This document shows positions 43,756-64,000 of a stretch of 64,000 nt of DNA, piece by piece. A program made the position numbers and the translations under genes. How positions within the stretch are numbered: position 1 is the stretch's first letter; the number at the start of each line of letters is the position of its first letter. The notes below the pieces were generated by a model. It did no database searches and was not told where the DNA came from. It saw nothing but the letters and a program-made list of their open reading frames with translations. Origin of the DNA: Marinobacter sp. X15-166B. Lineage in GTDB: Bacteria; Pseudomonadota; Gammaproteobacteria; Pseudomonadales; Oleiphilaceae. The stretch lies in assembly GCF_001752365.1 (NCBI RefSeq), contig NZ_MEIY01000001.1, forward strand, positions 1,499,044 to 1,563,043, given 5' to 3'.

Positions 43756-43776
43756 GTCGGGTTCCCCCGGTTGTTG

Positions 43777-44856: not shown

Positions 44857-44868
44857 GACAGCCTCGGG

Positions 44869-45648: not shown

Positions 45649-45657
45649 GTCCGGTCC

Positions 45658-46824: not shown

Positions 46825-46829
46825 ATCGA

Positions 46830-48320
46830 CTAATCCAGTTTGATGGAGAAATTCGGGCCGGCCACGGCATCACTGGAGAACCAGCGTGCGGTGGTGGTTT
46901 TGGTCTCAGTATAGAACTTGACGCCCTGTTTGCCGTACGCGTGCTGGTCACCGTAGAAAGAGCCTTTCCAGCCGGTGAACGAGAAGAAGGGCAGGGGCAC
47001 CGGAATGGGGATGTTGATTCCCACCTGGCCGACCTCCACTTCGTGATTGTAACGGCGCGCAGCACCGCCGGAGCTGGTGTAAATCGACGTGCCGTTGCCG
47101 TAAGGGCTGGCGTTGACCAGCTCCAGGGCCGCATCCAGCGAGTCGACTTCGGTGCAGCACAACACCGGGCCGAAGATCTCTTCTTTATAGATGCTCATCT
47201 CCGGGGTGACCCCGCTGAACACGGTCGGGCCCACCCAGTTGCCGTTCGGGAACCCGTCTACTTCGTAGTTGCGGCCGTCCAGCAGCAGATTGGCACCTTC
47301 TTCCACCCCCTGGCCGATCAGCTTCTCGATCCGCGCCTTGGCAGCGGGGCTGATCACCGGGCCGTAGCTCGCCTCGGGGTCGTTCCAGGCACCGGGACGG
47401 ACCTTGGCGATGGCGTCTTTCAGTTCCGGAATCCACTCCCGGGCCTCGCCCACAAACACCGCCACCGAAATGGCCATGCAGCGCTGACCGGCGGCCCCGA
47501 CCGAGGCACCCACCAGGGCACTGATCACATGGTCCTTGTCCGCATCCGGCATGATCACCATGTGGTTTTTCGCACCGGCAAAGCTTTGTACCCGCTTCAT
47601 GTGACGGGTGCCGGTTTCATAGATGTACTGCCCAACCGGGACCGAACCGACAAACGACAACGCCTTGACGCGGGGGTCGGTGAGCAGGGTGTCGACCTGG
47701 GTCTTGCCGCCGTGCACCACTTGCAGCACGCCTTTGGGCGCACCCGCCTCGACGAACAACTCGGCCAGCCGCATGGGGGTCAGCGGATCCTGTTCGGAGG
47801 GCTTGAGAATAAAGGTGTTACCGCAGGCAATGGCGAGCGGGAACATCCACAGGGGGATCATGGCCGGGAAATTGAACGGCGTGATACCGGCGCAGACGCC
47901 CAGTGGCTGGGTGTAGGAGTAGCAATCGATGCCCCGGCCGACGTTGCCGACGGTCTCGCCCATGAGCAGGGAGGGAATGTTGGCGGCGTGCTCGACCACC
48001 TCAATCCCGCGCCAGACATCGCCCTTGGCGTCGTCAAAGGTTTTCCCGGTTTCCTGTGACAGGATCTCCGCAATTTCGTCCTGGTGTTCTTTCAGCAGCG
48101 CCTGGTAGCGCATCATCAGCCGGGCCCGCTCAGGCACCGGTACCTCGCGCCAGGATTGGAATGCTGCGCCGGCCGACTCGATGGCCCGTTGCATTTCCGC
48201 CTCCGTGGTGACGGGCGCGCGGGCGATGACTTCATTGGTGGCCGGATTGGTGACGTCAATCCATTCGCTGGTCTGACTGTCTTGGAATTCGCCTTCGAGG
48301 AAGAGCTTTACATTCGTCAT
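46830..48320 (-). CDS. mmsA: Methylmalonate-semialdehyde dehydrogenase (acylating) MmsA
   Basis: The 496-residue protein is the CoA-acylating aldehyde dehydrogenase that converts methylmalonate semialdehyde to propionyl-CoA and CO2. Motifs are [48 protein letters not shown], and the catalytic cysteine in [17 protein letters not shown]. The subfamily ends with [35 protein letters not shown]. It is the first gene of the valine operon, divergent from mmsR. Confidence 0.96.
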
Positions 48321-51412: not shown

Positions 51413-52732
51413 TCAGCGGGTGAGGTAATCGGCGACGGCCTGATACGCCGGCAGGGAGGTCGGGTCGTTGTGGGCATTGGCGCCCTTCGGGTGGGAGGCG
51501 AGGCGCACAATCACCATCCTGGCGGTCGGGTCTATATAAATGGTCTGGCCATGAACGCCCCGGGCCGCATAAGCCTCGTTGTCGTTGTGGTAAAACCACC
51601 ACATGCTCCGGTAGCTGCCGTTGGGCATGCTGGTGTAGCCTGCTTTGGCGAACAGCGCCGGGTCACCGCCCTGGCGGATGTTGCGCACGGCGGCGGCGGG
51701 CACCAGCTGTTCTCCGTTGAACTTGCCTTCATTCAGCATCAGCTGGCCGATGCGGGCCAGATCCCGCAAACCCGCATTCAGGCCGCCGCCGGCGAAGGGG
51801 GTGCCGATGGAGTCGATGGTGAAATAGGCCGACTGCTCGGCACCCATACGCTGCCAGATCCGTTCGGACAACAATTCGCTGACGGACTTGCCCGATGCGC
51901 GGGCAATGATCCAGCCGAGGGCATCGGTGTTGATGGTTTTATAGGCAAACGCCTCACCATGCGCCCCGTCGGCCGGCACGGTCTGCAGGTACCCGAAAAA
52001 GCTGCGCGGACCTTGATAGCTCTCCGGCTGGGGCATGGGGCTGGTGGCGGTGGAGTATTTCCACAAATCCCCATCGGGGTCGAGAAAATTGCCACTGTAG
52101 TCCTCATTGAATTTGAGGCTGGTGGTCATGTCGAGAATCTGGCGCAGGGTTGCGGTACCGAACGCGCTGCCCTGCAACTCGGGAATCAACTCACCGGCCA
52201 GGGCCGCTTCATCCAGCACGCCCTCGGCAATCAGGGTTTCCGCCAGCAGCCCGGTGAGCGATTTGGTCATCGACATGGCCGCATGGGTACCCATCTCGTC
52301 CAGGCACCCGGCGTAACGCTCGTACACCACTTTGCCGTCATGCAGCACGATCACGCCGTCGGTGTGATTGGCGTCAAACGCCTGGTCCCAGCTCATGGGG
52401 GTGTCTGTGCCGGTGGGCGTAAAGGTCACCTCGGCGATTGCCGGATCCAGTTGGTAGTCCAGATTCACCGGTGCGCCCAGGCCCCGGTGCAAAACCTTGG
52501 AAGGAAACAGCTCGCGCAGGTGGCACACCGTCCAGCGCAGCTTGTCGCCGGCAAAATAGTCGCGGTCGGAATTGCGGATCAGGCGGTCATCGGCGGGGGG
52601 AAACCCGCTCATCCAGGGGGTGGCAGGCTGCGCCGTGGTTGCCGCCAGCGCCCCGCCACTGAGCAGCAATCCGGTGCAGGCACCCAGCAGCCAGGAGGTT
52701 GCCAGCAGTCGTAGTTTGGACTTGTTGTTCAT
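51413..52732 (-). CDS. Serine hydrolase, beta-lactamase/6-aminohexanoate-dimer hydrolase type
   Basis: The 439-residue protein has a signal peptide (about residues 1-30, ending near ALAAT) and a class C beta-lactamase-fold domain. The nucleophile is in SMTKSLTGLLAETL (SxxK), with a tyrosine in AFAYKTINTDALGW and a late WWFYHNDNEAYAARGVHGQTIYIDP block. Such proteins hydrolyse esters or amides and not usually lactams. It is expected in the periplasm or outer surface. ATG 52732 replaces a longer frame to 52810. Site A of the shared motif lies 75 bases before its start. It may release a conjugated or esterified substrate for the downstream catabolic genes. Confidence 0.88.
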   Translation of the reverse strand: MNNKSKLRLLATSWLLGACTGLLLSGGALAATTAQPATPWMSGFPPADDRLIRNSDRDYFAGDKLRWTVCHLRELFPSKVLHRGLGAPVNLDYQLDPAIAEVTFTPTGTDTPMSWDQAFDANHTDGVIVLHDGKVVYERYAGCLDEMGTHAAMSMTKSLTGLLAETLIAEGVLDEAALAGELIPELQGSAFGTATLRQILDMTTSLKFNEDYSGNFLDPDGDLWKYSTATSPMPQPESYQGPRSFFGYLQTVPADGAHGEAFAYKTINTDALGWIIARASGKSVSELLSERIWQRMGAEQSAYFTIDSIGTPFAGGGLNAGLRDLARIGQLMLNEGKFNGEQLVPAAAVRNIRQGGDPALFAKAGYTSMPNGSYRSMWWFYHNDNEAYAARGVHGQTIYIDPTARMVIVRLASHPKGANAHNDPTSLPAYQAVADYLTR

Positions 52733-52807
52733 AACGCTTTCCCTGTTGCAGTTCGGTGTTTGAATCACATGGTCTGGGCTCAAGTTTGCCCGGACTGGGG
52801 GCGATGA

Positions 52808-52823
52808 CATCGTCTGTTTGGAT
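52808..52823 (-). promoter_or_regulatory. Catabolic-region motif, site A (before serine hydrolase)
   Basis: On the minus strand ATCCAAACAGACGATG matches the consensus fully. It ends 75 bases before ATG 52732. Confidence 0.7.
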
Positions 52824-52861
52824 CAAAGACGGGTGCTGTAAAGGAAAATGGTGGCCAACTG

Positions 52862-52877
52862 GTCCGAATTGACGATG
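52862..52877 (+). promoter_or_regulatory. Catabolic-region motif, site G (before HsdA-like SDR)
   Basis: GTCCGAATTGACGATG on the plus strand matches 14 of 16 consensus positions. It ends 117 bases before ATG 52995, more distant than the other sites. With site A it makes a divergent pair in one 262-base gap. Confidence 0.6.
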
Positions 52878-52994
52878 CCGGGGCGGGGCGGTTCGGCCAT
52901 GCTACAGTTGCTCGAAGCCAGCATAAAAACAGCCCTGAAGCCTGTTCAGCCTGGACGCATCGGGGATGCTAACCACTTGAGGGAGAACAATATC

Positions 52995-53762
52995 ATGCCT
53001 ATTACAGCGGTAACCGGCGCGGCATCGGGAATCGGCGCCGCCCTGAGCCAACAACTCTGCGACGCGGGCCACACCGTGATTGGCATCGATCGCAGTGGCA
53101 GCGACGTCAACGCCGATCTGTCGACCGGCGAGGGACGCCGGAGTGCGGTTGACCAGGTGCTGGCAGCCAGCGGGGGTGTGCTGGACCATCTGGTGCTGTG
53201 TGCCGGTCTGGGCATCACCGCGCCGAACTGCGGTCTGATTGTAGCGGTAAATTATTTTGGCGTAACCGAATTGCTGGATGGTCTGGCGGATGCGCTCTCA
53301 AAAGGCACACAAGCATCAGCCGTAGTGGTTGGTTCGGTCGCCTCTGTGCAAACCGGCGCTGATCAGTTGCCTATGGTTGAAGCCATGCTGTCGGGGGACT
53401 TCGATGGGGCCGTGGCGGCCGCCAACGAGGACAACAATCCCAGTATGGCGTATGCGGGCTCGAAGTACGCGGTTACCGTGTATGTGCGGCGCAAGGTTCG
53501 GGCATGGGCTGAACAGGGCATTCGTGTCAATGTCCTGGCACCGGGTGTGGTGGAAACCCCATTGTATAAAGCCTCCACCGAAGACCCCAAGTATGGTGAA
53601 GCCACCCGCAATTTTGTGGCGCCCCTGGGGCGTGGCAGCAAACCGGAAGAAGCCGCGAACGTCATTCGCTTTTTGCTGTCCGAGCAGGCCAGCTTTATCC
53701 ACGGTACCGTGCTGTTTGCCGACGGCGGCATGGACGCGATGATCCGTCCTGGCAAGTTCTGA
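52995..53762 (+). CDS. SDR, 3-alpha-hydroxysteroid dehydrogenase/carbonyl reductase-like
   Basis: The 255-residue short-chain dehydrogenase has TGAASGIGAAL, VIGIDRSGSDVNADLSTGEGR, LVLCAGLG and the active-site YAGSKYAVTV, then LAPGVVETPL and a tail ending in FADGGMDAMIRPGKF. The pattern follows Comamonas testosteroni HsdA, whose tail and middle motifs (LVLCAGLG, VNYFG, YAGSK, DGGIDAVMRP) are closely similar from memory. HsdA interconverts 3-alpha-hydroxy and 3-oxo steroids. GAGGGAG lies before ATG 52995; the frame upstream to 52848 includes site G and is not coding. Steroid specificity is inferred from the resemblance and neighbours. Confidence 0.8.
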   Translation: MPITAVTGAASGIGAALSQQLCDAGHTVIGIDRSGSDVNADLSTGEGRRSAVDQVLAASGGVLDHLVLCAGLGITAPNCGLIVAVNYFGVTELLDGLADALSKGTQASAVVVGSVASVQTGADQLPMVEAMLSGDFDGAVAAANEDNNPSMAYAGSKYAVTVYVRRKVRAWAEQGIRVNVLAPGVVETPLYKASTEDPKYGEATRNFVAPLGRGSKPEEAANVIRFLLSEQASFIHGTVLFADGGMDAMIRPGKF

Positions 53763-53778
53763 GACCGTTAGGTGGTCA

Positions 53779-53804
53779 AGCCCCTTCGCGCGCGGGTTGG
53801 GGCT
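53779..53804 (+). terminator. Hairpin after HsdA-like SDR
   Basis: AGCCCC (53779-53784) and GGGGCT (53799-53804) pair around a 14-base loop, 17 bases after the stop. There is no clear T-run. Confidence 0.4.
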
Positions 53805-53878
53805 GGTAAATAACTGACGCCTTCCCCCTGGCTGTTTGCCCGGTGTCCGATCCCGGAAAAGGGCACAATCCGCCAGCG

Positions 53879-54811
53879 CTAGTTTACCGGAGTCAGGGCC
53901 GGTTCGCCGGCAAAATGAGCCGCCAGGTTCGCGAACACCAGATCCAGCATTGCCTGCACGGTCGCCTCAGTGCTGCTCGCCATATGCGGCGTCAGCACCA
54001 CATTGGGGAGCGCTTTCAGGGCGGGTGAAACATGGGGTTCGTCGCCAAACACATCGAGGCCGGCGGCCAGAATTTTGCCCTCGCGCAAGGCCTCCAGCAG
54101 GGCATCTTCGTCGACAATGGAGCCGCGCGCAATGTTGACCAACACACCGCGGGGACCCAGCGCAGCGAGTACCGCCCGGTTGATCAGACCGTCGGTTTCG
54201 GCCCCACCGCTGGCGCACACCACCAGAAAGTCGACACTCGCGGCCAGGTCGCGCACATCGTCGCACCAGCGGTAGGGCAGGTCGGGCTTGGGTGTGCGTC
54301 CGCTATAGGCAACCGCCATCCCGAACGCCTCGGCCCGGGTCGCTACCGCTTGGCCAATGCGCCCCAGGCCCACAATACCGATGCGTCCGCCGAACACCCG
54401 GGGGGTCATGGGGTAACGCCCCGTTGCCCAGTCTCCCCGGCGGACGAAGCGATCGGCATTGACAATCTGGCGGGCGGCGCACAGCAGCAGCGCCATGGCA
54501 AACTCGGCGATGTCTTCGGTGGATAATCCGGGGGTGTTGGTCACGCGGACCTTGTGTTCACGGGCCGCCTCAAGGTCAATACCGTCGTAACCGACACCCA
54601 GCACCGAAATGATTTCCAGCGCCGGGAGTTGGGCAATCAGCGAACGGGGGACGCTGGCATTGGCGGCGGTTACCACGCCGCGCACTTTGGGGGCCAGCGC
54701 GGTGAATTGCACCTCGTCCAGTGCCCAGTGCAACTGACAGTCGAAATGTTCGCCTAAGCGGTTGACGAAACTGTCGGGCAAGCGACACAGCAGTAACAGG
54801 GTGGGCTTCAT
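53879..54811 (-). CDS. D-2-hydroxyacid dehydrogenase, NAD(P)-binding
   Basis: The 310-residue protein is of the D-isomer-specific 2-hydroxyacid dehydrogenase family, close to glyoxylate/hydroxypyruvate reductases. The Rossmann motif is RIGIVGLGRIGQAVATRAEAFGM, with catalytic VVCASGGAETDGLINRAVLAALGPRGVLVNIARGSIVDE (arginine), GKILAAGLDVFGDEPH (glutamate) and the histidine in VLTPHMASST. It probably reduces a 2-keto acid from the pathway. It follows MFS1 downstream with 91 bases between, and could be read from the site B promoter. No motif lies directly before it. Confidence 0.9.
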   Translation of the reverse strand: MKPTLLLLCRLPDSFVNRLGEHFDCQLHWALDEVQFTALAPKVRGVVTAANASVPRSLIAQLPALEIISVLGVGYDGIDLEAAREHKVRVTNTPGLSTEDIAEFAMALLLCAARQIVNADRFVRRGDWATGRYPMTPRVFGGRIGIVGLGRIGQAVATRAEAFGMAVAYSGRTPKPDLPYRWCDDVRDLAASVDFLVVCASGGAETDGLINRAVLAALGPRGVLVNIARGSIVDEDALLEALREGKILAAGLDVFGDEPHVSPALKALPNVVLTPHMASSTEATVQAMLDLVFANLAAHFAGEPALTPVN

Positions 54812-54902
54812 TGCGTTCTTTCACCTCAAACTCTTCGCCTCACAGGGCGTGATGGTTGTTCCACCGGGCGAGCCGCTCGCGGCACAGCGTCACCGGCGAG
54901 TA

Positions 54903-56234
54903 TTACGCCGGTTGCGCGGCTGCGGCCGGTGCCAGGGCCTGAACCGGATAATTTTTGACCTGGTGGCGGTAACGGGGGATCGCCACAGACAGGCTCACAC
55001 AGGAAACAGCCAGCAGCCCGATGCAGATGGCCAGCGCGTAGCGCAGGGCCTCTCCGCCCAGGGAGGGGCTGAAATAGTCGCTGAGCAGGCCCACCAGCAG
55101 CGGCCCCAGACCCACGCCCAGCAGGGTGTTGCCCATAAACAACAGGGCTGTGGCTTGTGCCAGCTGGCGGGCGGGAAACAAGTGACTCAAGGAACCGAAG
55201 ATGGGCACTGTCCACCAGACCCCGAAAAACGCAAATCCCGCGTAAAACAGAAACGCCTGAGGCACCGCCATGCTGCCGATGTGAACAGCCAAGCCACTGG
55301 GCCAGAGGAAAAACAACAGGCCAAAGGGGATGCTGAGAATGGTGCCCAGCAGCGCCGTTCCCAGTTGCCAGCCACTGTCGCGGCTATTCAACCGGTCAGT
55401 GACCACCCCGCAGGTGAGGGTGCCCAGTACCGAGACGAGGCCGCCGCCTACGCCCATCAGGAAGCCGGCCTCCTGCAGGCTCAGACTGTGGGAGCGAATC
55501 AGAAAACTGGGGTTCCAGGTACCGACCGCCATGCCTGTTACGGTGGCCACGCTGGCGGCCAGCATAATCAAGCCAAACCCGGGCGTGCGCAGCAGCTGGT
55601 TGAGCGTATCGGCCAGACTTTCGTCGGGTGCCTGAGCAGCAGGTGCCACCGGGGCTTTGGGTTCGCGGACGGTCAGCGCCAGAAGAACGCCCAGGGCTAC
55701 GCCCGGGGCGCCGATCAGGATAAAGGCCCAGCGCCACCCATACAGCTCGGCAATCCAGCCCCCCAGCCCCAGACCCGCTACGGCCCCGATGGCCGGCCCC
55801 ATCATGAACACGGATAACGCCCGGGAACGCAACCGGGCCGGATAGAGTTGCGACACCATGGCCACCGACGGGGCCGAGCCACCGGCTTCCCCGATGGCGA
55901 CGCCAATGCGAAACAGCAGCAGCATCGCAAAACTGGTGGCCACTCCGCACAGCATGGTCATCACACTCCAGGCAACGCATGCTGCGGCGACCACCGGCTT
56001 GCGGCCAATACGATCCGACAACCGGCCGATGGGGATTCCGAAGACGGTGTAAAATATCGCGAAAGCCACCCCTGACAGCAGGCCGATCAGGGTGTCCGAC
56101 ACGCCAAACTCCAGCTTGATCGGTTCGATCAGGATCGACACCAGCAGGCGGTCAACAAAATTGAACACATAAATAATGGCGAGCATCCCCAGCGCGTAAT
56201 GGGTGCGCCAGGTGACGGTTGGTTCAGAGGGCAC
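54903..56234 (-). CDS. MFS transporter, spinster-like
   Basis: The 443-residue carrier has twelve membrane segments and the MFS motif GRLSDRIGRKPVVAA between segments 2 and 3. The start VDRLLVSILIEPIKLEFGVSDTLIGLLSGVAFAIFYTVFGIPIGRLSDR is the typical spinster-type N-terminal half common in aromatic and steroid degraders. GTG 56234 has AGGAG at good distance. It is homologous to the second MFS gene at 57.2-58.6 kb, with the same N-terminal pattern. Site B lies 59 bases before its start. The likely substrate is the pathway compound or an intermediate. Confidence 0.88.
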   Translation of the reverse strand: MPSEPTVTWRTHYALGMLAIIYVFNFVDRLLVSILIEPIKLEFGVSDTLIGLLSGVAFAIFYTVFGIPIGRLSDRIGRKPVVAAACVAWSVMTMLCGVATSFAMLLLFRIGVAIGEAGGSAPSVAMVSQLYPARLRSRALSVFMMGPAIGAVAGLGLGGWIAELYGWRWAFILIGAPGVALGVLLALTVREPKAPVAPAAQAPDESLADTLNQLLRTPGFGLIMLAASVATVTGMAVGTWNPSFLIRSHSLSLQEAGFLMGVGGGLVSVLGTLTCGVVTDRLNSRDSGWQLGTALLGTILSIPFGLLFFLWPSGLAVHIGSMAVPQAFLFYAGFAFFGVWWTVPIFGSLSHLFPARQLAQATALLFMGNTLLGVGLGPLLVGLLSDYFSPSLGGEALRYALAICIGLLAVSCVSLSVAIPRYRHQVKNYPVQALAPAAAAQPA

Positions 56235-56293
56235 AGAGAGGCTCCTGTTGTTTTTATAGTTGATGCATAGTCGGCCGTCCGCGAGCAGGCGTG

Positions 56294-56309
56294 CATCGTC
56301 TGTTCAGAC
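56294..56309 (-). promoter_or_regulatory. Catabolic-region motif, site B (before first MFS gene)
   Basis: GTCTGAACAGACGATG on the minus strand is the best match and contains the near-perfect inverted repeat GTCTG-AA-CAGAC. It ends 59 bases before GTG 56234. Confidence 0.75.
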
Positions 56310-56354
56310 CATATTGCTGCCCGCCGGCCCTTGTGTGGCGGGCGGCGGAGCGGT

Positions 56355-57107
56355 TCAGGCGGTTAACGCCCCGCCATTCAGGGGCAGCACCTGGCCCGTG
56401 ACCCAGGCTGCCTCCGGGGAGGCGAAATAGGCCACGCCGGCCCCCACGTCCTCCGGGCTGCCCGCCCGGGGTACAAAACAGGTCTTTTTGGCCAAAGCGT
56501 CGGAATCCCAGTTGTTCATGGTGCCCAGAGACAGTGCGTTGACGGTGATGCCCGAGCGCCCGGTTTCGGCCGCAAGATGGCGGATAAAACCCACCGCCCC
56601 GGCTTTAGAGGCGGCGTAGGCGGCGATGCCCATGGGCAGACCAGCGCGCCAGGATTCCGAGGTAATGGCGACCACACGGCCGTAACCGCGTTCTTGCATA
56701 CCGGGCACTGTGGCGTGGCAGATGTTCATCAGCCCGAACATGTTCAGGTTGACGAACCGTTGCCAGTCTGCCGGTGTCGAGGCCAAAAACTTCTTGTAAC
56801 CCATGCCCTCTGCAGGCACGCCCGCATTGGAGACCAGAATGTCAATGCCAGCAGTGGCGGCGTTCACCCGGGCCACCATGGCGGCGACCTGATCGTAGTC
56901 GGTGATGTCCGCAGCGGCGGGAAAGGCATCAATGCCCTCAGCGCGCAGCGTGTTAACGGTGTCTGCCGCCCGCTCCGTGAACAGATCGTTCACCGCCACT
57001 CTGGCGCCCAACCGGCCCAGGGTGCGGGCAATTCCAACGCCCATGCCGCGACCGGCCCCCGTGACCAGGGCGGTTTGCCCCTGTAATCCGAACATTTGCT
57101 GTGACAT
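56355..57107 (-). CDS. SDR family oxidoreductase
   Basis: The 250-residue classical SDR has cofactor motif TGAGRGMGVGIARTLG, SNAGVP, the active-site AYAASKAGAVGFIRHLAAE with Tyr and Lys, a serine in ITSESWRAGLP and a late LSLGTMNNWDSDAL. The C-terminal QVLPLNGGALTA is as usual for the family. AAGGAG precedes ATG 57107. Site C lies 68 bases upstream, so it has its own promoter in the catabolic region. Substrate unknown; a hydroxysteroid or hydroxyacyl compound would fit the neighbours. Confidence 0.87.
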   Translation of the reverse strand: MSQQMFGLQGQTALVTGAGRGMGVGIARTLGRLGARVAVNDLFTERAADTVNTLRAEGIDAFPAAADITDYDQVAAMVARVNAATAGIDILVSNAGVPAEGMGYKKFLASTPADWQRFVNLNMFGLMNICHATVPGMQERGYGRVVAITSESWRAGLPMGIAAYAASKAGAVGFIRHLAAETGRSGITVNALSLGTMNNWDSDALAKKTCFVPRAGSPEDVGAGVAYFASPEAAWVTGQVLPLNGGALTA

Positions 57108-57175
57108 GAGTCAACTCCTTGTTTTTGTTAGAACGAGCGCGAGACCACAGAGTCCCAGACAGCGACGCAGAGCGG

Positions 57176-57191
57176 CATCGTCCGTTTGGAT
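57176..57191 (-). promoter_or_regulatory. Catabolic-region motif, site C (before SDR)
   Basis: ATCCAAACGGACGATG on the minus strand matches 15 of 16 consensus positions. It ends 68 bases before ATG 57107. Confidence 0.7.
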
Positions 57192-57229
57192 ATTTTGGTG
57201 TCAGGGGCGGGCTGGTGTGCCGGGTGGGC

Positions 57230-58558
57230 TTAAACCGTTGCCGGCTGTACCCGGGCGGCCGGTTGATGCCAAGGCTGGTGACGCAGCAAGGTCCATAACA
57301 GCCCGATGGGTATCAGCACCGTCAAACTCACCAGCACCAGGGCGTACCGCAGGGACTCGTCGCCCGCGTAAGGGGTCAGCGCATCGCTGAGAGCCCCGGT
57401 CACCAGCGGCCCCAGACCGACGCCAAGCAGGGTGGTGAACACGGTTTGCAGGGCAATGGCGGTGGCCCGTTGCCATTGGGTCACCAGCTGGGTCAACAGG
57501 TTGAAGGAGGGACCCACCCAGAAAACGGTAAAGAAGCCCGACAGCGCACACCAGAGCATGGCACCGGGCACCGGCACCCCGGCCAGCTCAAAGGCGATAC
57601 CGGCCGGAGTGAGCAAATAGGCAACCATGGCACTGGTGGCCACGGCGTGACCGATCAGCGGCATGCGCACCAGCCAGGCCCGGTTGCGGGCGCTGAGCCG
57701 GTCGGTTAGCCAGCCGCTGAACAGACTGCCGACCCCCGCGGCAACACCGGTCACCACTCCGGCCAGAATGCCCGCGTGCTGCAAGGAAAGCCCATGGGAG
57801 CGCACCAGAAAAGCGGTGTTCCACATGGCAAAGGAAAAAGCCCCGAAGGTGGTGATGGCGCTGGCGCCGATCAGCATCAGGCAGCTGCGGTTGCGGATCA
57901 GTTTGAGGGCTGCCTGAACCAGACCTTCTTTGGGTGGCGCCTCCCCACCGCCTATATCCCATCTGCCCCGGGCGGGCTCGCGCACCACCAGCCCGAAAAT
58001 GAGCGACATCAGTATCAGCGGGGTGCCAATGGCAAAGAACCCGGTTCGCCAGCCAAACGCGCCGACTATCCAGGCACCGGCACTCAGACCGACAATGCTG
58101 GAAATGGTGGGAGCGCCGGTGAAACAGCTGATCGCCAGCGAGCGCCGGTGGGGCGGGTACAGGTCCGCAATCAGCGACAGGGATGCCGGAGTCACCGGCG
58201 CTTCTGCGGCGGCCACCAGCATGCGCGCCACAATCAGCATCCAGAAACCGACGGCGAAGCCGCACAGCAGTGTGGCAAAGGCCCACAACCCCAAACTGAA
58301 AGCCAGCACTTTGGCGCGGCTGTATCGGTCCGACAGGCGCCCGGCGGGCAGCCCCAAAAAGGCGTACACCACCGCAAACGCCAGCCCGGAGATCAACCCC
58401 ATGGCGGTGTCGCTGGCGTTGAACTCCAGTTTGATGGGTTCGATCATGACCGACATGATCTGACGCCCCATGAAACTGCCGGCGTAGGTGATCACCAGTA
58501 GCGTGAGAAACCCGTGGGTGCGCCACCCCAGCCGACGGGCGCCGGCGGTCACGGACAT
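57230..58558 (-). CDS. MFS transporter, spinster-like, second copy
   Basis: The 442-residue carrier has twelve membrane segments and MFS loop GRLSDRYSRAKVLAFS. Its N-terminal IEPIKLEFNASDTAMGLISGLAFAVVYAFLGLPAGRLSDR and the central FLVRSHGLSLQHAGIL are parallel to the first MFS carrier, so the two arose by duplication or belong to one subfamily. It is the last gene of the six-gene operon starting with the flavin reductase; the aldolase gene stops 4 bases before it. Candidate uptake or efflux carrier for the ring substrate or a side product. Confidence 0.88.
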   Translation of the reverse strand: MSVTAGARRLGWRTHGFLTLLVITYAGSFMGRQIMSVMIEPIKLEFNASDTAMGLISGLAFAVVYAFLGLPAGRLSDRYSRAKVLAFSLGLWAFATLLCGFAVGFWMLIVARMLVAAAEAPVTPASLSLIADLYPPHRRSLAISCFTGAPTISSIVGLSAGAWIVGAFGWRTGFFAIGTPLILMSLIFGLVVREPARGRWDIGGGEAPPKEGLVQAALKLIRNRSCLMLIGASAITTFGAFSFAMWNTAFLVRSHGLSLQHAGILAGVVTGVAAGVGSLFSGWLTDRLSARNRAWLVRMPLIGHAVATSAMVAYLLTPAGIAFELAGVPVPGAMLWCALSGFFTVFWVGPSFNLLTQLVTQWQRATAIALQTVFTTLLGVGLGPLVTGALSDALTPYAGDESLRYALVLVSLTVLIPIGLLWTLLRHQPWHQPAARVQPATV

Positions 58559-58562
58559 GAGG

Positions 58563-59594
58563 TTACGCGGTAGCCTGGCGCTGTTTGAGCAGTGTCAGGG
58601 CGGTGTCCTCGATCATGTCCTCCTGCCCGCCGACCATGCCGCGACGGCCCATTTCCACCAGAATTTCCCGCGCCGACACACCGTATTTGGCTTCGGCGCG
58701 CTTGGCGAACAGCAGGAAAGAACCATAGACCCCGGCGTAGCCCATGGTCAGGGCATCCCGGTCGCTGCGGATCGGGAAGTCCATGATGGGGACCACCAGG
58801 TCTTCTGCGACGTCCTGAATACCAAACACATCCACCCCGGTGTCAATGCCCATGCGGTCACAGACCGCCACCAGCACTTCCATCGGTGTGTTGCCTGCGC
58901 CTGCGCCCAGACCGGCGCAGGCGGCATCAATGCGGGTGGCACCGGCGTCAATGGCGGCAATGGAATTGGACACCCCCATGGCCAGGTTGTGATGGCCGTG
59001 AAAACCGATTTCGATGTCGTCACCGAGCGCCTGGCGGATGGCGGTAACCCGCTCATGCACGTCGTGGGGCAGCATGTAACCGGCCGAATCGGTGATGTAG
59101 ATGCAGTTGGCGCCGTAACTTGCCATCAGCTTTGCTTGCTGGGTCAGGCCTTCGGCCGTGTTCATGTGCGCCATCATCAAAAAACCCACGGTGTCCATGC
59201 CCAGCGTGCGGGCTTCGGTGATGTGCTGTTCCGAGACGTCCGCTTCGGTGCAGTGGGTGGCCACCCGAATCGTATTCACACCGAGGTCTTTGGCCATGCG
59301 CAAATGATCCACGGTGCCGATCCCGGGCAACAGCAGGGCCGACACTTTGGCCTTGTTCATCAGCGGAATAACCGCCGACAGGTATTCTTCATCCGTGTGC
59401 GCGGGGAACCCGTAGTTTACCGATGCGCCACCCAGACCGTCGCCGTGGGTAACTTCAATCAGGGGGACGCCTGCGGCATCCAGCCCTTGCGCAATAGACT
59501 TCATCTCCGCGAGGGAAATCTGATGGCGTTTCGGGTGCATGCCATCGCGCAGGCACATGTCGTGAACGGTGATCTTTTTGCCTTGCAGGTTCAT
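58563..59594 (-). CDS. dmpG: 4-hydroxy-2-oxovalerate aldolase
   Basis: The 343-residue DRE-TIM metallolyase splits 4-hydroxy-2-oxo acids to pyruvate and an aldehyde in the last steps of meta-cleavage pathways. It has the N-terminal [51 protein letters not shown] with the metal histidines, and [18 protein letters not shown]. Its partner, acylating acetaldehyde dehydrogenase, is encoded 10 bases upstream in the operon, matching the known physical DmpFG/HsaFG complex that channels the aldehyde. The steroid-pathway name would be hsaF. Confidence 0.95.
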
Positions 59595-59604
59595 GACAGT
59601 CTCC

Positions 59605-60501
59605 TTAAGCCACAGTTTGGGTGAGTAGTTTTTCGGCGAACAGTTCGGCGGTGCGGGCCGCGGCGGCGGTCATGATATCGAGGTTGCCGGCGTATTTCGG
59701 CAAATAGTCTCCCAGTCCCTCAACTTCCATGAAGATGGACACCCGGTTGCCGTCAAACACCGGGCCGTTCACCAACTGGTAGCCGGGTACGTACTTCTGT
59801 ACTTCGCCGATCATGGCATGAATGGACGCGGTGATGGCGTCCTGGTCGGGCTCGCCTTCCACCAGGCAATGCACCGTGTCCCGCATGATCAGTGGTGGTT
59901 CAGCCGGGTTGATAACGATTATGGCTTTGCCTTGCCGGGCGCCGCCGACCTGTTCCACCGCGCTGGCGGTGGTGCGGGTAAATTCATCAATATTCTTGCG
60001 GGTGCCGGGGCCCACCGATTTGGACGCCGCGGTGGCAATGATCTCGGCGTACGCCACCGGTTGCACGCGGGACACGGCGGCCACCAGAGGGATGGTGGCC
60101 TGACCACCACAGGTGACCATGTTGACGTTGGTTGCGCCCTGGTTCAGTTTCGCTTCCAGGTTGACCGGCGGGACACAGTACGGGCCGATCGCAGCGGGCG
60201 TCAGGTCGATCATCAGGACGCCCAACTCGTTGAGCTTACGGCTGTTGTCAGCGTGGACGTAGGCCGAGGTGGCATCAAAGGCAATGCGGATATCGTCGTC
60301 CTGTATGTGCGGCAGCAGTCCGTCGACCCCGTCGGCGGTAACTTTCAGGCCCATGTCCCGGGCCCGTTGCAGACCTTCAGAGGTAGGGTCGATGCCCACC
60401 ATCCACACGGGTTCGAGGACTTCGCTTCGTTGCAGCTTGTACAGCAGGTCGGTGCCAATGTTGCCCGGACCGATCAGGGCGCAGCGGATTTTTTTACTCA
60501 T
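59605..60501 (-). CDS. dmpF: Acetaldehyde dehydrogenase (acylating)
   Basis: The 298-residue protein converts acetaldehyde or propionaldehyde with NAD and CoA to the acyl-CoA. It shows [14 protein letters not shown] at the cofactor site, the catalytic cysteine C131 in [19 protein letters not shown] and a C-terminal dimer domain with [15 protein letters not shown]. It is the DmpF/BphJ/HsaG family with normal length and works in a complex with the aldolase next to it. The steroid-pathway product would be propionyl-CoA via HsaG. Confidence 0.95.
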
Positions 60502-60524
60502 TGTTTGACTCTCCGGTAACAGAC

Positions 60525-61319
60525 TCAGTCGGTAAACGTCAGGCTGGCGGAACCCAGACCGGTGATGTTCATGGCGAAGCGGTCGCCGGCGGCCACAGGC
60601 ACCAGCGGCGCGAGGGCACCCGACAGGATGATTTCACCCTTACGGAAGGGGATGCCCAGTTTGCCCAGGGTGTTGGCCAGCCAGGCAACCGCTTCACAGG
60701 GGTGGCCCTGCACCGCCGAACCCAGGCCACTGCCGGCGGGTGCACCGTTCTTGGTCATGGTGAGTTCGACACTGGCCAGATCGACGGTACGCGGGTTGAT
60801 ACGCCCGCTGCCGAGGGCAAAAACGCCACAGGAGGCGTTATCGGCCACCGTGTCTTCGATGGCAATCTGCCAGTCGCGAATCCGTGAATCGACGATCTCG
60901 AAGCAGGGCACCACCCATTCGGTGGCGGCCAGCACGTCACTGGCGGTCACTCCGGGGCCGTTCAGATCTGCTGCCAGGATAAAGGCGATTTCACCTTCGG
61001 CCCGGGGCTGGACCAGGCGGTGTTCCGCCATGCTCACGGCGCTGCCGTCCGGCACCGACATGGCGTCGGTGAGAAAACCGAAGTCAGGCTGATGCACGTT
61101 CAGCATTTCCTGGACGGCTTTCGAGGTCACCCCGATTTTCTTGCCGATGACCCGTTGCCCGGCGGCTTCTCGGCGCTGCAGAAAGCGCAGCGAGATCCGG
61201 TAGGCCTGGTCCAGGGTCAGGTCGTGGTAACGCTCGGTCAGCGGGGCCAGACTGGTGCCCGATTGCAGGGCGTCAAACAGTTCGTCGCCCAGGGCTTGAA
61301 TGAGGTTGTCGTCGATCAT
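60525..61319 (-). CDS. 2-oxopent-4-enoate (2-hydroxypentadienoate) hydratase
   Basis: The 264-residue protein belongs to the fumarylacetoacetase-like hydratase/decarboxylase family of meta-cleavage pathways: RRFEA-like start, [63 protein letters not shown] and [27 protein letters not shown]. It hydrates 2-hydroxydienoates to 4-hydroxy-2-oxo acids for the aldolase. HsaE/TesE-like function fits the neighbourhood; 4-oxalocrotonate decarboxylase is a related alternative. A TTG at 61334 is a less likely start than ATG 61319. Confidence 0.88.
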
Positions 61320-61357
61320 GGTGGTGTCTCTCAACCGGCTCGGTGGAATGAATGGGT

Positions 61358-62131
61358 TCAGCTCGGGAATACGCTGGTATCGGCACCGCCATCCACATCG
61401 ATGATTTTGCCGGACACCCAGCCCGATGCGGGTGACGCCAGATACAGGGCTGCCGCAGCGATATCTTCAACTTCACCCAGGCGCTGCAGAGGCGTGTTCC
61501 GGGTCATGGTTTCCTTGACCGTGTCCGGCATCACCTTGGCGAGGGCGTCGGTCATCACCGGACCGGGGGCAATGCCGTTGATGCGTACCTCCGGAGCAAA
61601 GTCCTGGGACAGCAGCTTGGTCATGTGGGTCAGGGCCGCTTTGGCGGTGCCGTAGGCACTGAAATTGGGTTGTACATAGCGGGCGGCCACCGACGTGATG
61701 TTGATGATGTTGCCGCCACCGGCCTCGCGCATGTGGGGCACGCACAACTGGGTCAGGTGGTAAGCGGTGGTCACATTGAAATGCAGCAGCCGGTCCAGTT
61801 CCTGCCAGGATTGTGTCAGCGGGTCGTTGGGGCCACCGCCGCCCACGTTGTTGACCAGGTGGGTGATGGTGCCAAAGGCGTCCAGCGCCTGTTTTACCAG
61901 GGTTTCACGGTCACCGGCGTCGGTGGCGTCACAACGGACGGCGATCGCGTCGCCGCCGTTATCGCGAATTTGGGCGACCACCGCCTCCACGTCGCTCAGG
62001 GTGCGGGCGGCGCAGACCACCCGGGCACCGGCTTCGGCGTAGGCCAGGGCAATGGCGCGACCAATGCCTTTGCCTGCCCCGGTAATCACGGCCACACTGC
62101 CGGTCAGGCGGAAACGATCAATCAGGCTCAT
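61358..62131 (-). CDS. SDR, 7-alpha-hydroxysteroid dehydrogenase-like
   Basis: The 257-residue classical SDR has TGAGKGIGRAIA, VNNVGGGGPNDPLTQSW, AYGTAKAALTHMTKLLSQDFAPEVRINGIAPG and MTDALAKVMPDTVKETMTRNTPLQRLGEVEDIAAAALYLASPASGWVSGKIIDVDGG. The NNxGGGGP block, MTDAL, and late SPASxWVSGxI motifs resemble E. coli HdhA, 7-alpha-hydroxysteroid dehydrogenase, which oxidises bile acids. ATG 62131 is 20 bases downstream of the flavin reductase. Steroid substrate is inferred, but the placement with two more hydroxysteroid-like genes and a meta-cleavage lower pathway supports it. Confidence 0.78.
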   Translation of the reverse strand: MSLIDRFRLTGSVAVITGAGKGIGRAIALAYAEAGARVVCAARTLSDVEAVVAQIRDNGGDAIAVRCDATDAGDRETLVKQALDAFGTITHLVNNVGGGGPNDPLTQSWQELDRLLHFNVTTAYHLTQLCVPHMREAGGGNIINITSVAARYVQPNFSAYGTAKAALTHMTKLLSQDFAPEVRINGIAPGPVMTDALAKVMPDTVKETMTRNTPLQRLGEVEDIAAAALYLASPASGWVSGKIIDVDGGADTSVFPS

Positions 62132-62151
62132 GTCACACTCCTTCTTTCGCG

Positions 62152-63153
62152 TCAGGCGGTTTGCTCGGTTTTGTTGGTCTCGCCGCCGCCCCACAGGTCC
62201 GGCAGACCGGGATCGGTGATCTTGATCAGGCGCTTGAGCAGAAATTTCAGGGCTTCGGTTTCACCGGCACCCAGCTGGTCAATCACCTGCTCCTCAACAG
62301 CTTTGGCCAGAGCAATGTGCTGGACCGAGGCATCGCGGCCGTCAGCAGTGAGCACGTAACGGTCGTCACCGGCCTGGTTTACCCGCACCACCAGGTCGTA
62401 TTCCTGCAGTTTGTCCATTTCCGCGCGGCTCACCGAACTGCCGGTGTAATCAACAAACCGGTTGATTTCTTCCAGGGTCAGATTGTCCTGAATACTGAGG
62501 ACCGAGAGGATAAAAAACTGCTGCTCATCCAGTCGCTGACTCTGCAAGAGGTTGCGCAACGAGGCGACCAGTTGAAAATGGGCCCGTCCGGCCAGGTAGC
62601 CCAGCAGATCTTCGGTGTAGCTGCACTCCGGAGTCGGGGTGGCACCAAGCTGAACGCCTTCCCGTGGTTTGCGGGCGGCCAGCGCATACTGGCCGCTCTG
62701 GAAGGCCAGTGGCGGCAGGTCGGTTTTGTCAAAGTTGAGGACTTCGCCCACGAAAATCATGTGGTCACCGCCTTCGTACATAAAGGCCGTGCGACAGTTG
62801 AAGCGGGCCGTGCAGTTCTTCAGCAACGGAATATTGTTGATGCCCGGATCCAGCTCCAGGCCTTTGAACTTGTCTTCCCCGCGGGACGCAAAACGCCCGG
62901 ACAAGGCTTCCTGTTCGGTCGACAGGATATGTACGTTCCAGTGTTTGTTGTTGGTGAACGCCGACAGGCTCATGGCGGATTTGTCCAGACTCCACAACAC
63001 CATGGGTGGGTTCAGCGACACCGAGTTGAAACTGTTGGCGGTAATGCCAACGGGCTCGCCGTTCTCGGCCCGCGTGGTAATGATGGTGACGCCTGTGGTG
63101 AAGGTGCTCAGTGCCGAGCGAAATTCCCGGGGGTCGAAGCTGGCTTTGGCCAT
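62152..63153 (-). CDS. Flavin reductase with MarR-like C-terminal domain
   Basis: The 333-residue protein has an N-terminal flavin-reductase domain (about residues 1-165) with FRSALSTFTTGVTIITTRAENGEPVGITANSFNSVSLNPPMVLWSLDK, the FMN-binding type of HsaB and HpaC. The C-terminal domain (about 195-310), with FFILSVLSIQDNLTLEEINRFVDYTGSSVSRAEMDKLQEYDLVVR and a basic DRYVLTADGRD, resembles a MarR winged helix. This layout is that of the C1 reductase of Acinetobacter 4-hydroxyphenylacetate hydroxylase, where the domain senses the substrate. It supplies reduced flavin to a two-component monooxygenase, not encoded here. GAGGTG precedes ATG 63153. First gene of the operon. Confidence 0.83.
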   Translation of the reverse strand: MAKASFDPREFRSALSTFTTGVTIITTRAENGEPVGITANSFNSVSLNPPMVLWSLDKSAMSLSAFTNNKHWNVHILSTEQEALSGRFASRGEDKFKGLELDPGINNIPLLKNCTARFNCRTAFMYEGGDHMIFVGEVLNFDKTDLPPLAFQSGQYALAARKPREGVQLGATPTPECSYTEDLLGYLAGRAHFQLVASLRNLLQSQRLDEQQFFILSVLSIQDNLTLEEINRFVDYTGSSVSRAEMDKLQEYDLVVRVNQAGDDRYVLTADGRDASVQHIALAKAVEEQVIDQLGAGETEALKFLLKRLIKITDPGLPDLWGGGETNKTEQTA

Positions 63154-63217
63154 GGTGGTACACCTCATGTATGACTTGCTGGGTTAGCCTCAGTATCGGG
63201 GGCTCGCCGGCCCTGAA

Positions 63218-63233
63218 CATCGTCTCTATGGAC
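63218..63233 (-). promoter_or_regulatory. Catabolic-region motif, site D (before six-gene operon)
   Basis: GTCCATAGAGACGATG on the minus strand matches 14 of 16 positions. It ends 64 bases before ATG 63153 and would control the flavin reductase operon. Confidence 0.65.
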
Positions 63234-63285
63234 TATCGACCGGTTGCCTGCAACTGCCCGTCGCTGACGGTTTTTTTTCGCCATC

Positions 63286-63301
63286 GTCTGAACAGACGAG
63301 G
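63286..63301 (+). promoter_or_regulatory. Catabolic-region motif, site E (before aldehyde dehydrogenase)
   Basis: GTCTGAACAGACGAGG lies 74 bases before ATG 63376. The core CGTCTG-AA-CAGACG (63285-63298) is perfectly palindromic, so it reads almost equally well from the minus strand, and could bind a dimer symmetrically. Confidence 0.7.
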
Positions 63302-63375
63302 CGGCCTTGCAGAGGCGCTTCTAAGCTACCCCTATAGCCTGCAAATAATTCAAACAAAACAATAAGGAGAGCCCC

Positions 63376-64000
63376 ATGAGCGCTCAGTTGCGAACGCCGG
63401 AAGATTTGTCTGGGTTGTTAAAACAGCACCGAGCAGCAACAGACGGACAGGGCGCGGTTGATGTGGAGACGCGCAAACGCCGGCTCCAGGCGGTCATCGA
63501 CTTGCTGGTGGATCATCATCAGGAACTGTGCGCCGCCATGGCTGCCGATTTTGGCGGCCGCCCCATCGGTTTCAGTCTGATGAACGACATTCTGGGCTCT
63601 CTGGGGTCGCTCAAGTATGCCCGCGATCACCTGGAAGAATGGATGGGGCCGGAACCGCGGCAGGTGTTTACGCCCTACGACCAGATGGGGGCGCAGGCGT
63701 GGGTCCAGTATCAGCCCAAGGGCACCGTCGGCATTATCGGCACCTGGAACGCACCCATTTTCACCCTGTTCAGCCCGCTGGCCTCCGCGTTGTCGGCCGG
63801 TAACCGGGCGGTGCTCAAACCGTCGGAAGTGGTGCCGGAAACCGCGCGGGTGCTGGGGCGTATTATCGGAGAGTGCCTGGACCCCCTGGACGTGGCCGTG
63901 ATCACCGGCGGGGTAGAGATCGGCCAGGCCTTTGCCGGTATGCCGTTCGATCATCTGGTGTTTACCGGCAGTACTCAGGTGGGTAAGAAGATCATGCGGG
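63376..64000 (+). CDS. Aldehyde dehydrogenase, coniferyl-aldehyde type (3' end outside window)
   Basis: The visible 208 residues from ATG 63376 run off the right edge. They carry PKGTVGIIGTWNAPIFTLFSPLASALSAGNRAVLKPSEVVPETA and HLVFTGSTQVGKKIM, typical of the NAD(P) aldehyde dehydrogenases of the coniferyl aldehyde group; the catalytic cysteine lies beyond the edge. AAGGAG precedes the start. Site E lies upstream. It may oxidise an aldehyde from side-chain or ring degradation; the substrate is unknown. Confidence 0.87.
   Translation, partial: MSAQLRTPEDLSGLLKQHRAATDGQGAVDVETRKRRLQAVIDLLVDHHQELCAAMAADFGGRPIGFSLMNDILGSLGSLKYARDHLEEWMGPEPRQVFTPYDQMGAQAWVQYQPKGTVGIIGTWNAPIFTLFSPLASALSAGNRAVLKPSEVVPETARVLGRIIGECLDPLDVAVITGGVEIGQAFAGMPFDHLVFTGSTQVGKKIMR

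Follow-up and report, generated by a model that had tools for sequence, protein, structure and literature searches.

The right end of the window (the whole stretch of 64,000 nucleotides of Marinobacter DNA analysed here) raises the question of what its catabolic genes degrade. A preliminary description, made from the letters of the window, reported short-chain dehydrogenases/reductases (SDRs) resembling hydroxysteroid dehydrogenases (HSDs) beside the genes of a lower meta-cleavage pathway, and proposed a steroid as substrate. The window edge falls within the left arm of an island of about 77 kb with 64 called genes, and the cluster continues rightward on the flank. The island runs from 51.4 kb of the window to extended position ~128.6 kb (the numbering of the window continued along the flank) in a host genome of 3.49 Mb. 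It is very probably one chromosomal cluster for the aerobic (9,10-seco) degradation of steroids with a C5-carboxyl side chain, i.e. bile acids. Its genes, their families and their order are observed, and each reaction, like the substrate, is predicted from them.

Catabolic genes within the window

The left arm is conserved in 11 loci from other genomes, as far as each extends. The island begins with a beta-lactamase-family serine hydrolase gene (51413-52810, minus strand; PF00144, 99 bits), relatives of which (71-74%) adjoin the same cluster in L014, L015 and L017. The gene set named in the preliminary description is present by family profiles at 52848-63168. Its list was right except for the omission of a D-2-hydroxyacid dehydrogenase family gene (53879-54811, minus strand; PF02826/PF00389), for which the 11 loci have no listed match. 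The outer bounds were less exact: the start at 52733 lies inside the serine hydrolase gene, and an aldehyde dehydrogenase gene begins at 63376, one base past the end then given.

The first SDR (52848-53762, plus strand) is of the 3-alpha-HSD type. The nearest solved structures are both named 3-alpha-HSD (2dkn, 329 bits; 1fjh, 236 bits; next best 67), and the motifs TGAASGIG and YAGSK are present. Its true start is probably 52995, since the best PDB relatives align from residue 50 onward, and it is found near the cluster in 4 of the 11 loci. The second SDR (56355-57107, minus strand; adh_short, 154 bits) has no steroid-specific match above a cut-off. The third (61358-62194, minus strand) has 7-alpha-HSDHs as its nearest PDB relatives (8hax/3gaf, 230 bits). 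It is not classed as a 7-alpha-HSDH because it falls below the NCBIfam cut-offs (PRK06113, 262 of 367 bits; AlphHSDSHdhA, 181 of 350), though this is its nearest solved family. The alignment of its best PDB relatives from residues 22-28 onward argues that it probably starts at 62131; it occurs in 10 of the 11 loci and is missing from L018. The finding named beforehand as a refutation of the steroid reading, SDRs outside the steroid families, thus applies only in part.

Two MFS carriers possibly transport steroids. One (54903-56234, minus strand; MFS_1, 174 bits) has 73% relatives in L014 and L017, and the other (57230-58558, minus strand) adjoins HsaF in nine of the 11 loci. They had been called spinster-like; the MFS assignment stands, and the narrower label has no support beyond the MFS_1 and OATP Pfam matches, OATP being above cut-off, alongside MFS_1, in the second carrier and not in the first.

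The lower meta-cleavage genes are assigned by families together with gene order. HsaF/TesF, a 4-hydroxy-2-oxo acid aldolase (58563-59594, minus strand; TIGR03217, 548 bits, cut-off 286), is 85-94% identical in 10 of the 11 loci, and the eleventh (L016) ends before it. In the PDB it is closer to 8ih7 and to 1nvm, which we take to be the phenol-pathway enzyme DmpG, than to 4jn6, presumably the HsaF of M. tuberculosis. HsaG/TesG, an acylating aldehyde dehydrogenase (59605-60501, minus strand), also exceeds its cut-off (TIGR03215, 474 bits, cut-off 282). HsaE/TesE, a 2-hydroxydienoate hydratase of the 2-oxopent-4-enoate hydratase type (60525-61334, minus strand), scores 384 bits with TIGR03220, below the cut-off of 409, yet this is the best among the four models listed (next 246). 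The order HsaB-(SDR)-HsaE-HsaG-HsaF is found again in loci from other genomes and is therefore not due to chance.

The HsaB position is held by a flavin reductase with a C-terminal MarR-like domain (62152-63168, minus strand; Flavin_Reduct, 125 bits; HTH_27, 24 bits, cut-off 22.2). Both domains expected from its earlier description as an HsaB/C1-type reductase are present, the same two as in reductase C1 of the Acinetobacter baumannii hydroxyphenylacetate hydroxylase. The best PDB match by sequence (5zc2) is aligned over residues 6-173 only. The AlphaFold model has a mean pLDDT of 53, with 67-87 over residues 211-280. Its top Foldseek match is C1 (5zyr, 315 columns), with a TM of 0.33 and an rmsd of 17.1, so a C1-like domain arrangement is not confirmed. 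The overall model is weak, and the C-terminal domain alone, with a VIA-align Z of 13.6 against MarR, is used as structural evidence.

The divergently oriented aldehyde dehydrogenase (63376-64000, plus strand; Aldedh, 268 bits) runs off the window and is complete on the flank (extended 63376-64806, 476 aa). It is present in 10 of the 11 loci and fills the slot between the reductase and HsaA, as Sad does in the Chol1 table of PMC8399759, which makes it a candidate Sad.

Predicted ring and side-chain genes beyond the window edge

HsaA, HsaC and HsaD had been predicted right of 64 kb, and a search for KshAB and KstD had been proposed there; genes of all these types are found on the flank. Those of the HsaA, KstD and KshB types lie less than 8 kb from the window edge, and those of the HsaD, HsaC and KshA types farther right. 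The HsaA type (extended 66712-67902) scores 380 bits with NF045629, the better of the two models listed, versus 226 for the hydroxyphenylacetate oxygenase, and its best PDB match (2rfq) is named 3-HSA hydroxylase. Because the curated cut-off is 450 bits, it is termed HsaA type and not certified as HsaA. KstD (extended 67957-69693) has as its best PDB match a 3-oxosteroid 1-dehydrogenase (7p18, 674 bits), and of its three best-scoring NCBIfam models two are for 3-ketosteroid 1-dehydrogenases; every one scores below cut-off (best 569 of 788). A KshB-type reductase gene (extended 70458-71492) adjoins it.

The HsaD-type hydrolase (extended 82386-83219) carries the motif GNSLG. In the PDB its score of 180 bits with BphD exceeds that of 147 bits with HsaD. 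The HsaC type (extended 93457-94380) is the sole BphC_D1 match in the genome (61 bits). It is named by superfamily and position since it reaches the cut-off neither of NF045631 (267 of 450) nor of the biphenyl-diol dioxygenase model TIGR03213, with which it scores higher (284 of 366). KshA (extended 127559-128605) matches KshA_C with 231 bits against a cut-off of 23.3, its top three PDB sequences are all 3-ketosteroid 9-alpha-hydroxylases/monooxygenases, and the motif CPH...CPFH is present. The genome has two further KshA_C matches, both at 23.7 bits and so barely above that cut-off.

The island also holds two Sal/Shy-type side-chain cassettes. The side-chain set includes two Thiolase_C_1 proteins, two ChsH2-domain proteins and MaoC domains, as well as acyl-CoA dehydrogenases and three CoA ligases. 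Its domains and order are as expected for SCP-x-type aldolases, DUF35/MaoC hydratases, paired acyl-CoA dehydrogenases, CoA ligases and Sad. The C/D-ring set comprises CoA_trans, FabK/IpdC-type, enoyl-CoA hydratase and thiolase genes. The names Sad, Sal, Shy, Std, IpdB and IpdC are provisional, given by position and domains.

Substrate and proposed route

Bile-acid degradation is already known in other bacteria, and the cluster described here is probably a further example. In Pseudomonas stutzeri Chol1 the cholate cluster (C211_RS10975 to RS11300) has nearly the same functions, with the order shared in blocks such as Sal1-Shy1-HsaC-IpdA-IpdB-ScdN-IpdC and Shy2-Scd2B-hydratase-Sal2-Scd2A-Delta4KSTD; this comparison is by domains and by the locus-tag order in Table 1 of PMC8399759, not by sequence. 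In the same table TesG (RS10985) and TesF (RS10990) stand in the order opposite to that of the window, and Scd3A/B and StdA3 are placed differently than in the island. Unlike Chol1, the island has a chemoreceptor gene between the aldehyde dehydrogenase and HsaA, and no bile-salt amidase is seen among its scanned genes. By family and position the island also has counterparts of the tes/scd genes of Comamonas testosteroni TA441/CNB-2 (TesA1, TesA2, TesB, TesD-G, TesH, TesI, Scd, Sal/Shy), whose locus-tag order, again compared by table (PMC8399759), differs from that of the island.

Our best guess for the substrate is a C24 bile acid and not a C19 steroid, since the Chol1 match equates the aldehyde dehydrogenase that crosses the window edge with Sad. 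A pathway that lacks side-chain removal and degrades only testosterone or other androstanes is unlikely. In its favour, several proteobacterial clusters are without most side-chain genes according to passages of PMC4810484, and in a metagenome-assembled genome (MAG) of the same genus (G139, locus L018) the contig stretches covered show neither Sal/Shy cassettes nor an aldehyde dehydrogenase or third SDR. The present island, however, has two aldolase/hydratase cassettes and an aldehyde dehydrogenase in the Sad slot.

Cytochrome P450s and Mce-type importers are marks of sterol pathways, and neither is found among the scanned island genes. A passage in the literature names Mce4 as such a mark. 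Degradation of a sterol such as cholesterol is thus very improbable here, although its ring degradation steps are homologous to those of the bile-acid pathway according to section 6 of PMC8399759. It is likewise very improbable that the locus encodes a catechol, phenol or biphenyl meta-cleavage pathway only, with a coincidental steroid look. The HsaE, HsaF and HsaG families cannot separate the steroid from the phenol pathway, and for HsaD and HsaC the biphenyl models give slightly better scores, but KshA, KstD, an HsaA-type oxygenase, a 3-alpha-HSD and side-chain cassettes share the island. The steroid guess was right, and the neighbouring region is not merely that of a catechol or phenylpropionate pathway.

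The route proposed for a bile acid follows from families and gene order. Ring A would be oxidised by the 3-alpha-HSD, a Delta4-KSTD and KstD. Loss of acetyl-CoA, by a CoA ligase and a dehydrogenase pair together with Shy1 and Sal1, would leave an aldehyde for oxidation by the putative Sad, and a second ligase, dehydrogenase pair and hydratase, with Sal2, would remove propionyl-CoA. KshAB would then open ring B, HsaA with the HsaB of the window would hydroxylate ring A, HsaC would cleave it and HsaD hydrolyse the product. The released C6 acid would be converted to pyruvate and propionyl-CoA by the HsaE, HsaF and HsaG of the window, and rings C/D would be cleared by the IpdA/IpdB/IpdC/FadA6-type set.

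The MarR-like domain on HsaB and the chemoreceptor within the cluster are less ordinary details. The chemoreceptor is present in two of the 11 loci, L015 and L020. By analogy with C1 and hydroxyphenylacetate, we tentatively suggest that in clusters of this family the MarR-like domain might bind the phenolic seco-steroid and allow flavin reduction only in its presence, so that the steroid monooxygenase would be switched by its own substrate, and that the cluster might carry its own steroid chemoreceptor in this strain, in the Denitrificimonas caeni record and in Halopseudomonas formosensis. HsaB differs from C1 in sitting with an HsaA-type oxygenase, and the gating is an analogy. The word chemoreceptor is not found among the matches listed in the literature on bile-salt and steroid degradation; in Comamonas, according to passages of PMC10637631, estradiol induces a chemotaxis transducer.

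Conservation and possible inheritance of the cluster

Left-arm relatives, in records that include those titled Denitrificimonas caeni (L015), Halopseudomonas formosensis (L020) and Pseudomonas saudimassiliensis (L019), share the divergent layout of HsaB, HsaE, HsaG, HsaF, HsaA and KstD at 67-94% identity, and the left arm is partly present on a Vibrio plasmid. In a six-protein tree (without the partial loci L014 and L016, and with KstD missing for Vibrio) the window groups with L013, L015 and L017, and L018 of the same genus falls outside. Recent horizontal gain was considered from this tree and dropped, as the flanking core gene HrpB shows the same picture. HrpB is 78-79% identical to that in the genomes of L013, L015 and L017, 66-76% in 18 other genomes of the genus and 36-50% in genomes of the same order, seven of the 10 searched having a match; the same-genus MAG (82% complete) has no full-length HrpB match, with 36% over part. 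Irrespective of record titles, the genomes of L013, L015 and L017 look like the nearest relatives of the window, and the cluster may have been passed down within this small group, through a gain at its base or with losses elsewhere.

Composition gives no support for transfer, since the island (GC 61.1%, GC3 0.744; 64 genes) hardly differs from its left flank (60.7%, 0.740; 38 genes) and right flank (61.4%, 0.758; 39 genes). No tRNA that could serve as an insertion site is found in the window or in L003-L008. PaaX bounds the island on the right. Eight of the stretches from 10 relatives searched for an empty site (L034, L035, L037-L042) hold PaaX without a listed steroid-gene orthologue beyond it, L035 having one 34% ligase match there. 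The other two are uninformative, as L043 ends 146 bases past PaaX and L036 shares just paaZ and 27-31% matches. The joined left and right flanks of an empty site are found in none of the 10 stretches. A GGDEF gene was rejected as a left marker because its family is too common.

In the passages of the steroid-degradation literature examined, matches to Marinobacter are to Marinobacterium. Lower meta-cleavage genes and HSD-like SDRs alone correctly foretold a steroid pathway that is nearly complete by families. KshA is rare in this genus, with 2 of 124 genomes carrying it, and the present island adds a bile-acid-type cluster.

Gene content of the island

The ten genes at 52848-63168 and the aldehyde dehydrogenase (ALDH) gene starting at 63376 are real and belong to the families named in the preliminary description. 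Missing from that list were a D-2-hydroxyacid dehydrogenase (53879-54811) and a beta-lactamase-family serine hydrolase at the left edge of the island (51413-52810). The serine hydrolase accompanies the cluster in three of 11 loci (L014, L015, L017). Further left, 42859-48320 carries acyl-CoA dehydrogenase, enoyl-CoA hydratase, 3-hydroxyisobutyrate-type dehydrogenase, and aldehyde dehydrogenase genes, a set typical of valine breakdown that is kept apart from the island. The first SDR (52848-53762, forward strand), proposed to be HsdA-like, groups well with 3-alpha-HSDs. The third (61358-62194, reverse strand) is nearest to 7-alpha-HSDHs as suggested, but does not reach the curated cut-offs.

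The 117 kb following the window (G000:C1:1499044-1563043 in the source genome) were read and genes were called by a simple codon-usage script; coordinates continue rightward past 64,000. The steroid-like interpretation is supported, as steroid-type genes lie there, including HsaA, HsaC, and HsaD types, which it was suggested might lie to the right, and the KshAB and KstD proposed as the search targets. An MCP chemoreceptor (64844-66589, L003:3887-5632; TarH/4HB sensor, HAMP, and MCP signal domain) precedes an HsaA type (66712-67902), KstD (67957-69693), an SDR (69662-70456), a KshB-type reductase (70458-71492), DUF1302 and DUF1329 proteins (71612-74642), a SnoaL-like protein (74819-75316), an acyl-CoA dehydrogenase pair with a CoA ligase (76055-80086), an old-yellow-enzyme type (80213-82345), an HsaD-type hydrolase (82386-83219), an MFS protein (83233-84579), a CoA ligase (84717-86699), a metallo-beta-lactamase fold (86696-87787), and a second DUF1302/DUF1329 pair (87834-90929).

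Next are Sal1-type (91107-92327), Shy1-type (92324-93274; zinc ribbon, OB fold, and MaoC), HsaC-type (93457-94380), and IpdA-type (94293-95252; CoA_trans) genes. The adjoining IpdB candidate (95264-96073) is named by position and had no Pfam match. A hydratase, an IpdC type, another hydratase, acyl-CoA dehydrogenases, thiolases, and SDRs extend to 108089, followed by a YCF48-like protein with an MMPL exporter (108358-111741). The product of 111957-113210 has no Pfam match; by eye its end resembles a LuxR-type helix-turn-helix, and a 47% relative on a Vibrio plasmid has been assigned to the helix-turn-helix regulators. The island continues with a CoA ligase (113267-114874), an enoyl-CoA hydratase and SDR (114954-116671), the second side-chain cassette (116742-121634), an FAD dehydrogenase that is Delta4-KSTD by position (121742-123220), further SDRs with an old yellow enzyme (123291-127432), and KshA (127559-128605). 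Named without a family search were 100054-101112 and 120450-121634, each matching a gene annotated as acyl-CoA dehydrogenase on the Vibrio plasmid, and 106337-106873, a MaoC-type hydratase by eye.

Beyond KshA are PaaX, an ABC transporter, and phenylacetate genes. The ABC ATPase of the transporter adjoining the phenylacetate genes is fused to an N-terminal hemerythrin domain (L006:13036-14400, extended 133993-135357); a full-length match (454/454) occurs in all nine transporter-bearing stretches of 10 from the genus.

Judged by sequence, the identities of KshA and KstD are firm. Of the two NCBIfam models listed for the HsaA-type protein, that of HsaA fits better, at 380 where the curated cut-off is 450; the best solved relative is 3-HSA hydroxylase. 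HsaC and HsaD fall in the expected superfamilies yet score slightly nearer biphenyl enzymes; their names depend on position in the island. HsaE, F, and G taken alone cannot, as sequences, separate a steroid from a phenol pathway.

Comparison with Pseudomonas stutzeri Chol1

Genes of the cholate degrader Chol1 are listed by locus tag in Table 1 of PMC8399759. If tags follow gene order, one block reads 3-alpha-HSD, TesG, TesF, TesE, (gap), HsaB, Sad, (amidase), HsaA, KstD, (gap), KshB. A later block reads Shy2, Scd2B, hydratase, Sal2, Scd2A, Delta4-KSTD, Scd1A, Scd1B, StdA1, and a third HsaD, StdA2, Sal1, Shy1, HsaC, ScdL1, ScdL2, ScdN, ScdK, (gap), two dehydrogenases, ScdF, ScdE, ScdG, hydratase, thiolase; KshA is last (PMC8399759). 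The same blocks recur in the island with corresponding domains. However, the blocks follow one another in a different order, F and G have changed places, a pair of dehydrogenases separates ScdE from ScdG, StdA3 is elsewhere, and the Chol1 amidase has no counterpart among the scanned island genes. The window-edge ALDH stands where Chol1 has Sad, the enzyme acting on the aldehyde that Sal1 leaves, which it oxidises (PMC8399759). The likeness, which points to a bile acid as the probable substrate, is one of position and domains, known from a table rather than from sequence comparison.

Distribution and kinship of the cluster

A scan of genome contigs with the HsaB-position flavin reductase (62152-63168, reverse strand) gave 11 loci. 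The divergent layout around the reductase is kept in all of them, as far as each extends, and the third SDR and ALDH in 10, L018 lacking both. Because recruitment was through the reductase itself, these loci are uninformative on clusters with another reductase. Among 390 genomes sampled within the order, 12 contain a near-full-length relative of the reductase (E up to 1e-60). Besides the source genome these comprise five at 61-68% and another six at 38-41%, whose reductases perhaps belong to other pathways.

Within the genus, counting the source genome, two of 124 genomes have KshA (E up to 1e-40) and one of 37 has a match to HsaA with E below 1e-60. The second KshA carrier, a MAG (G139), shares a run of 4138 identical bases with the L018 genome, located alike on the contig. 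In the stretches read, its cluster is without both side-chain cassettes and ALDH, which makes it different in kind from the other same-genus cluster.

A six-protein tree (FastTree, 11 taxa) grouped the window with L013, L015, and L017 (support 1.000). This tree does not demonstrate horizontal gain, because the flanking HrpB likewise places the window nearest those genomes (78-79%, versus 66-76% to 18 same-genus genomes). Horizontal spread has been proposed for Proteobacteria in general (PMC4810484). HrpB of the L015 genome (NZ_CAJHOA010000003.1, titled Denitrificimonas caeni isolate Isolate_2) is 79% identical to that of the window, equal to MAG DTU037; HrpB from three other records, two of them titled Pseudomonas and the third Halopseudomonas, reaches 52-53%. 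By this sequence measure the title Denitrificimonas caeni may be wrong.

The 176-kb plasmid pVa1 (NZ_CP032095.1; L073, L074), from a Vibrio alfacsensis fish-gill isolate, bears a comparable set of steroid/bile-acid genes, one for an amidase among them. The two parts of pVa1 that were read, together 68 of its 176 kb, showed neither KstD nor KshA. HsaA and HsaB also have matches in two more plasmid records of V. alfacsensis. Steroid genes were reported absent from the 186 marine Vibrio genomes analysed in PMC4810484, and no literature joining V. alfacsensis with steroid was found among the matches listed.

The reductase domain and the chemoreceptor

The C-terminal domain of the reductase is MarR-like (Pfam HTH_27, 24 bits, barely above cut-off), and this region was found in all 12 reductase sequences aligned. 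The top Foldseek match was C1, the reductase of Acinetobacter baumannii hydroxyphenylacetate hydroxylase (5zyr; 315 columns, E 1.1e-17), but with TM 0.33, rmsd 17.1, and a weak model. VIA-align to E. coli MarR gave Z 13.6 (rmsd 1.7, 107 aligned), with many MarR-family rows tied, a score that helical folds may attain through arrangement alone. In C1, the MarR-like domain inhibits flavin reduction until substrate binding (PMC10816480); a seco-steroid might have such an effect on the reductase here.

The chemoreceptor gene was found in two of the 11 loci, L015 (6619-8289) and Halopseudomonas formosensis L020 (6658-8295), and in these two genomes and the source genome it sits between ALDH and HsaA inside the steroid cluster. 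The sensor half shares 74% identity with its counterpart in the L015 genome and 50% with the one from H. formosensis, the more telling case because L015 comes from a close relative. The genomes of the other nine loci gave no match or matches of 19-22% (four such matches across the 11 genomes). The steroid/bile-acid pathway itself is already known; two details of the cluster are testable, the MarR-like domain on the reductase and the chemoreceptor gene.
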